From: Pedobacter indicus
GTDB lineage: Bacteria; Bacteroidota; Bacteroidia; Sphingobacteriales; Sphingobacteriaceae
Direction of reading: 5' to 3'
Length of the DNA stretch: 64,000 nt
Assembly (NCBI RefSeq): GCF_003449035.1
Contig: NZ_QRGB01000001.1
Location: 2,604,001-2,668,000, forward strand
Below, piece by piece: positions 30,066 through 30,425 of this stretch (within the stretch, counting starts at the first letter, position 1; each line of letters opens with the position of its first letter). The notes below the pieces were generated by a model. It searched no databases, had not been told where the DNA came from, and was given only the letters and a program-made list of their open reading frames with translations. The position numbers were made by a program, and so were the translations under genes.

Positions 30066-30178
30066 TCTTGGTTTATAAAGAAGTGGCGAGAGACTGGCTC
30101 GATGAACCACTGGCAACCATCTGAAAGGAAAAGGTGCCAAATCCTGTCCCGAATTAACGGGAAAATATAAATTTATAA
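30066..30178 (+). ncRNA. SAM-I (S-box) riboswitch
   Basis: The sequence and pairing pattern match the S-box family. P1 pairs TTTATA (30072-30077) with TATAAA (30166-30171). P2 pairs GTGG and CGAG with CTCG and CCAC. P3 lies around GGCAACC and GGTGCC, including the conserved core AAGGTGCCAAATCC. P4 is TCCCG-AATTAA-CGGGA. It precedes metY, metX and a homoserine dehydrogenase, exactly the genes S-boxes control: when S-adenosylmethionine is plentiful it binds and lowers expression. No intrinsic terminator follows directly, so control through access to the downstream start codon is more likely than transcription termination. Confidence 0.93.
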
Positions 30179-30181
30179 GAC

Positions 30182-30310
30182 ATGAAAACAAAGAACATTT
30201 CTACCCTACACATGCCAAGCCATTATGCGTTTCGGCTATACTCTGTAACCGTCGGATCTACCTACCGAATGTGCAGCCCATCTACTATTTTCCAAGGTTA
30301 TTGTTGTTAA
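30182..30310 (+). CDS. 42-residue ORF just after the SAM riboswitch (candidate leader peptide)
   Basis: The ATG lies 10 bases past the 3' strand of riboswitch stem P1. The frame runs 42 codons to TAA (begins MKTKNISTLH, ends IFQGYCC). It contains three Met and three Cys codons, in line with a link to sulfur amino-acid supply, but it is not a simple Met-run attenuator. It is separated by 115 bases from metY. It could be a translated leader that links riboswitch state to expression of the genes downstream, or chance. I do not recognise homologues with certainty. Confidence 0.45.
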   Translation: MKTKNISTLHMPSHYAFRLYSVTVGSTYRMCSPSTIFQGYCC

Positions 30311-30425
30311 TCTTTTTGGAACAATCGAAAGCGTTCTCTATATGTCAATTCGTATTGAGGGAACGTATACAAAACATCTAATACAATCATTTTTTAAAAT
30401 TATTTACTGAAATTATTATATCATC
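30311..30425 (+). other. Untranslated segment between leader ORF and metY
   Basis: A possible stem-loop runs from about 30331 to 30366: CGTTC and GAACG as outer arms with a small CAAT-TCGT-ATTG hairpin inside. The rest is AT-rich and unstructured up to the metY ATG. There is no T-run, so it is not an intrinsic terminator. Confidence 0.35.

Follow-up and report, generated by a model that had tools for sequence, protein, structure and literature searches.

Short open reading frames (ORFs) with cysteine codons have been described before sulfur amino acid genes of Actinobacteria, where no obvious terminator was seen and Rho was suggested in 2005 (Seliverstov et al., 2005, PMC1262725), and polycysteine leader ORFs, leaderless according to the title of the work, have been reported in mycobacteria (Canestrari et al., 2020, cited in PMC13236596). 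In M. tuberculosis, the B12 and Mbox riboswitches act on or with an upstream ORF (uORF), and for the Mbox Rho-dependent termination is reported (PMC11260477, PMC12810186); the ligands are different, and the excerpts of these two papers state no amino-acid-sensing codon run. Leader-peptide-like small ORFs are mentioned, in general terms in the excerpts at hand, for F. psychrophilum and B. thetaiotaomicron (PMC9723704, PMC7366714). Leaders with cysteine runs and riboswitch-gated uORFs are each known, and a full-text search of open-licence papers yielded none in which a SAM riboswitch gates a cysteine leader; as far as the excerpts of these sources extend, the combination appears to be new.

The metY leaders of Bacteroidota described here share with the actinobacterial and mycobacterial ones a short ORF, cysteine codons near its stop and sulfur genes downstream. 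They differ in the phylum, the methionine codons, the CGA-AUG dicodon and the riboswitch in front, the last of which is not described in the available portions of those papers. A cysteine run near the stop is found across the set of leaders that we compared, whereas the Pedobacter indicus ORF has only a terminal Cys-Cys pair and one earlier cysteine. Since a 104-nt aptamer precedes this ORF, which is therefore not leaderless, the locus would work like the mycobacterial polycysteine leaders without being one of them. It resembles the usual SAM-I riboswitches in its complete aptamer and in the methionine genes downstream; unlike them, with their terminator or sequestering platform, it lacks a terminator, and the closest start codon is that of the leader peptide. 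Tandem SAM and AdoCbl riboswitches before metE of Bacillus clausii were reportedly described by Sudarsan et al. in 2006. There too a single leader RNA controls a methionine gene by a two-input, NOR-like logic, but through two independent aptamers with terminators, whereas the second sensor proposed here is the translating ribosome, gated by the first.

Organization of the metY Locus

The DNA analysed, hereafter the window, is a stretch of 64,000 nucleotides of P. indicus, in which the SAM aptamer is the sole Rfam family. All features given below lie on the forward strand. The SAM-I (S-box) aptamer occupies positions 30070–30173 (RF00162), with the 3' strand of stem P1 at 30166–30173, and its score over the complete model (1–108), 84.2 bits with a gathering threshold of 44.4, places it in the Rfam class. 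It is preceded by a probable Bacteroidota-type promoter (29992–30022), consisting of TTTG (29992–29995), 19 nt and TATATTTG (30015–30022), in agreement with what we take to be the promoter consensus of this phylum. The promoter is also kept at the same-genus locus, and of the 74 metY leaders compared below 55 have TAnnTTTG in the 120 nt that precede the aptamer (base-shuffle mean 6.7). Further upstream, on the same strand, lie a gene for a sigma-70-family (ECF-like) factor and an overlapping ORF of 195 aa whose family is unclear (28902–29982).

The leader ORF (30182–30310) encodes MKTKNISTLHMPSHYAFRLYSVTVGSTYRMCSPSTIFQGYCC and ends in RMCSPSTIFQGYCC before the stop. It has the 42 codons given in the preliminary description, which placed its start 10 bases after P1; measured from the end of the aptamer, the distance to the ATG is 8 nt. 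The conserved CGA-AUG dicodon and the first cysteine codon of the tail form CGA-AUG-UGC (Arg-Met-Cys, 30266–30274), and the other two of its three cysteines are encoded by TGT TGT directly before the TAA stop (30302–30310), the proposed stall site. A stable stem-loop is predicted at 30330–30365, in the spacer 3' of the ORF, and the ATG of metY (30426) follows the leader stop after 115 nt, as had been described. In the window, the stretch from the aptamer to metY contains no terminator-like site according to a consensus scan, so that the S-box does lack the terminator whose absence was first noted by eye, and an intrinsic-terminator platform is not seen here.

The gene metY (30426–31727; TIGR01326, 688 bits, cut-off 495.1; PF01053) encodes an O-acetylhomoserine aminocarboxypropyltransferase/cysteine synthase. 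In one operon with it, and adjoining without gaps, are a metX-like gene for homoserine O-acetyltransferase (31724–32779; best match TIGR01392, with 349 bits under the cut-off of 500) and hom, for homoserine dehydrogenase (32780–33970; NF004976, 324.8 bits, cut-off 205). Comparison with Pfam and NCBIfam gave no match for the leader peptide, and for this reason it would escape annotation.

Comparison of metY Leaders across Bacteroidota

When 201 genomes of the family were searched with the window peptide, the only good match was the peptide itself (5.6e-26). Matches at E ≤ 1 were obtained in 66 of the 201 genomes, the next best (0.0216) being taken as chance. Leaders were also compared by position. 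Relatives of metY were taken from 80 named Bacteroidota records, which were scanned with Rfam. At 74 of the 80 loci metY is preceded by a SAM aptamer in the same orientation, which lies within 600 nt at 72 of them; L120 and L126, in which the aptamer is more than 1 kb away, were set aside. No Rfam SAM match precedes metY in L069, L086, L119, L124, L130 and L137; the records of L086 and L119 include just about 120 and 70 nt of upstream sequence. The 72 loci, the window and a same-genus locus make up the set of 74 leaders.

The ORF was defined by a rule blind to composition, as starting at the first ATG past the aptamer, and 200 rounds of dinucleotide shuffling served as control. This ATG is found no more than 15 nt past the aptamer in 72 of the 74 leaders (shuffles, mean 17.5, maximum 28), and at a distance of 5–11 nt in 66 of the 73 that have an ATG. 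The resulting ORF is 25–64 aa long in 67 leaders (shuffles, mean 14.6, maximum 28). In 51 leaders three or more of its final 15 residues are cysteines, as against a mean of 0.48 and a maximum of 3 in the shuffles. Such a tail is specific to the frame: among the 68 leaders whose ORF has at least 20 aa it is found 51 times in the ORF frame, as compared to 7 and 1 times in the other frames and once on the reverse strand.

Frameshifts or stops in a close relative, which would speak against the ORF, were also looked for. In the only other genome of the genus compared, the ORF is intact, with 42 codons at the same offset and a different middle part, and ends in RMPQMCICLDGCCCC (tail CICLDGCCCC), cysteine-rich like that of the window. 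Tails of this kind recur in Mucilaginibacter (CICMCCCC), Pedobacter (CMCCCMR), Hymenobacter (RMRMCCWTPCCCCC), Pontibacter (RMCMCCCCC), Chryseolinea (CMCCCCACCC) and a Cytophagales MAG (CCCCCCC). The ORFs of Sphingobacterium mostly end in RMR or are rich in methionine, and the tail is weak or absent in Algoriphagus, Spirosoma and Pleomorphovibrio. The peptide search fails because just the type of tail is kept. The distance from the leader stop to metY ranges from 25 to 326 nt.

Coding Selection and Codon Usage

The analyses of pN/pS, spacer folding and pairing, composition and CGA codons, as well as a looser terminator scan, were carried out on 66 of the 74 leaders or on subsets of these (65 for the spacer, 59 for the start region). 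The other eight (L084, L106, L108, L112, L132, L134, L141, and L144) were dropped, the first-ATG ORF being absent, shorter than 20 aa or with fewer than two Cys/Met in its tail. This set was thus chosen partly by Cys/Met content, and its analyses are no test of that content. If a later ATG is taken, L084 has a tail ending in RMR and L106 a poly-Cys tail.

Of 31 close pairs listed, we used the 14 that share no member; the window and L033, whose peptides are too diverged, stand outside this count. Over the 14 pairs pN/pS was 0.53 (last 15 codons, 0.40; remaining codons, 0.60), with scatter among individual pairs, a few of which reach 1 or more. Positions with cysteine in both members comprised 13 TGT/TGC swaps and 54 unchanged codons, while at 14 positions cysteine was opposite another residue. 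The codon conservation among relatives to which the preliminary description had pointed as informative is hence observed and, along with the cysteine tails of 51 of the 74 leaders, provides one part of what is expected of an amino-acid leader attenuator, namely a short ORF, relevant codons and coding selection.

Arginine preceding methionine in the leader ORFs is encoded by CGA in 25 of 28 cases, as compared to 5% of the arginine codons of the same metY genes, and CGAATG, which occurs 27 times in the stretches from aptamer to metY, is in the frame of the ORF in 25 of these cases; the p-values of these tests, like those on spacer structure and pairing, overstate independence, since the leaders are related by descent. 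The bias and the in-frame position argue for a role at the codon level rather than as an RNA motif. Perhaps CGA is a slow codon that causes a programmed ribosome pause ahead of Met/Cys. The metY genes contain almost no cysteine (12 codons in 66 genes) and could therefore be expressed under cysteine shortage.

Specificity among S-Box Leaders

The association was also analyzed in 94 S-box leaders of the family, 34 of which were the genome's own, those of the genus and those with the best bit scores, and 60 were hand-picked from listed places; this sample is non-random, and high-scoring TonB leaders are over-represented in it. An adjoining ORF of 15–64 aa is present in 21 of 21 metY leaders, with at least two Cys/Met among the last 15 residues in 19, and absent in one distant metY-like leader. 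Elsewhere it was found in 1 of 21 leaders of cysteine-desulfurase-like genes, 0 of 2 of metH, 5 of 35 of TonB receptors and 4 of 14 others. The only non-metY adjoining ORFs with a Cys/Met tail belong to L222 and L225, both among the others and both before MetX-like genes (assigned by resemblance and Abhydrolase_1 only), which suggests that the device follows the metY/metX operon. The codon pattern Cys-Met-Cys-Cys-Cys matched in 87 of 201 genomes, as compared to 13 for the reversed pattern (counted from the individual matches); 16 of 30 matching loci examined have the order S-box, uORF, metY, and 14 are unrelated places. The window's own genome, where the tail is only CC, has no match to this pattern. 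The sole other S-box of that genome (L002; G000:C1:1043700–1043806) is separated by 89 nt from a metH-like gene downstream, without a leader ORF.

The S-box leaders of TonB-receptor genes (L039–L064, a Plug domain being found in L039) show a second arrangement. They contain two tandem terminator-like hairpins, the first of which is proximal to the SAM aptamer (about +31 to +60). From about +112 they carry a uORF of 24 aa, typically ending in FRMRxPC, and its last cysteine codon and stop codon sit in the 5' arm of the second hairpin. A uORF with an RM[RC] or CC tail is present in 26 of 35 TonB-receptor leaders. These leaders support the view that the S-box is paired with a sulfur-amino-acid leader peptide in general, and their layout predicts transcription attenuation at the uORF stop.

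Structure of the Spacer

Terminator-like sites were found in 4 of the 74 metY leaders, with no U-tract terminator in the other 70, as against clear ones in the TonB-receptor leaders; the looser scan gave no uniform terminator in the metY leaders either. The spacer is more structured than its shuffles, with z = −2.32 in the window and a mean of −1.33 over 65 leaders, and the structure is contained in the first 60 nt after the leader stop. Folding predicted the hairpin at 30330–30365 both for the free RNA and for each of the four ribosome-mask states used, and pairing of the cysteine codons with the spacer was not in excess (mean z −0.17, n = 65). As neither a mask-dependent switch of this hairpin nor excess pairing was found, an antiterminator of the trp type is not seen.

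Covarying hairpins 3' of the ORF were obtained with RNAalifold. The cleaner case is that of 11 Pedobacter leaders (L080, L085, L087, L091, L093, L094, L097, L100, L101, L105, and L229), in which an invariant CUUCC/GGAAG hairpin abuts a second one with covarying pairs, followed by UAC and no U-tract. This double hairpin may be the functional block. A wide set of Mucilaginibacter leaders gave no structure, while seven selected ones gave covarying hairpins. The start region of metY is predicted to be unpaired (59 leaders), to which its low-G, A-rich composition contributes. Occlusion of the metY start was rejected on the basis of this prediction, which given that composition is weak evidence.

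A Probable Riboswitch-Gated Leader Peptide and Its Alternatives

Taken together, the comparative data strongly support a real leader peptide under the riboswitch, by its sequence apparently built for ribosome stalling. We consider it probable that the P. indicus leader is a riboswitch-gated leader-peptide attenuator placed before metY. The aptamer, which appears from the scan to have no terminator of its own, would act through P1: when stabilised by bound SAM, its 3' strand, which covers positions −16 to −9 relative to the leader ATG, would block ribosome entry to the ORF, as the conserved spacing between aptamer and ATG suggests. At low SAM the leader would be translated up to the cysteine codons (methionine codons in some lineages) just ahead of the stop, where, judging from the codons, scarcity of charged Cys-tRNA would stall the ribosome. 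The stall would alter the course of events in the structured spacer and let RNA polymerase proceed into metY-metX-hom, whereas with no stall, or with no translation of the leader, the spacer would hold expression low. Expression of metY would then probably require low levels of both SAM and cysteine. The presence of structure near the leader stop, together with the open metY start, favours transcriptional over translational control, perhaps Rho-dependent, and by analogy Rho is a fair candidate for the last step; the effect at the level of the polymerase is a prediction of the model. Points against the model are that neither excess pairing of the cysteine codons nor a mask-dependent switch was seen, that no terminator was detected at metY in the window, that the window ORF has just three cysteines, and that the tails of several genera are weak, missing or, in most Sphingobacterium, of the RMR type.

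One alternative to this arrangement is that the leader senses Cys/Met alone and that the aptamer acts on metY in some other way (RNA stability, Rho access or long-range pairing). The TonB-receptor leaders keep the two devices separate, each with its own terminator-like hairpin, and gating by P1 at metY is deduced from spacing only. However, the ATG stands 5–11 nt past the aptamer in nearly all leaders and no separate S-box terminator is seen at metY, for which reason we hold this explanation to be unlikely. Classical attenuation of the trp type, where stalling at the cysteine codons lets an antiterminator form in preference to a terminator hairpin, is in our opinion doubtful. By eye, complementary stretches that overlap can be arranged as a 1:2, 2:3, 3:4 switch both in the window and in L033, and the Weeksella spacer (L123) does hold a terminator-like hairpin; but the switch found no support in constrained folding or in the pairing test, and such hairpins are rare in the set.

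That a stalled ribosome opens the metY start, or that termination and reinitiation feed it, is improbable. Translation attenuation is the mode reported, in the accessible part of the source, for mycobacterial cysteine genes (PMC13236596), but the distance from leader stop to metY is 115 nt here and widely variable elsewhere, structure comes right after the uORF, and the metY start is predicted open, albeit with a contribution of its low-G make-up. Of the two routes by which the preliminary description had the leader peptide govern metY, ribosome stalling is supported by the comparative data and the Cys/Met tail, whereas translational coupling is not. It is very improbable that the product itself matters, as a small Cys-rich protein for metal or redox binding under S-box control. 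The cysteine-rich tail and an ORF intact across genera would suit such a protein, but conservation does not extend to the remainder of the peptide, Sphingobacterium has Met-rich or RMR tails in place of cysteine, and the window peptide has no protein family match. A chance ORF in a long leader, first suggested by the failure of the peptide search to find a convincing match in 200 other genomes of the family, was overturned by the position-based comparison and is hardly credible, as position, length, frame-specific cysteine tail and synonymous excess go far beyond the shuffles.

The riboswitch-gated attenuator can be put in a broader form, to which we give an even chance. In Sphingobacteriales, Cytophagales and Saprospirales, and more weakly in Weeksella, the only direct output of the riboswitch would be ribosome access to a leader that senses aminoacyl-tRNA, that is, a serial gate for SAM and then Cys/Met-tRNA, with the TonB-receptor leaders as a parallel and CGA-AUG as an extra programmed pause. 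By its TIGR01326 name, MetY is in a position to channel sulfide into homocysteine or cysteine. A sensor of SAM alone would miss cysteine shortage, a sensor of cysteine alone would miss methionine supply, and one leader RNA would read both. This offers a concrete model for the control of sulfur metabolism at the RNA level in Bacteroidota, in which a riboswitch devoid of a terminator may work by deciding on the translation of a leader peptide, and it suggests that sensor peptides be sought behind other riboswitches with no obvious expression platform.

The preliminary description named no amino acid and overlooked the cysteine tail of the ORF; from the sequence, the leader codons point to cysteine, and to methionine in some lineages. 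A separate observation concerns the metY leader of Thermophagus (L130, about 2760–2990), which has no Rfam SAM match but contains a Met-rich ORF ending in MMMGRMSMA, with a strong hairpin past the stop, and is perhaps a methionine attenuator without a riboswitch.
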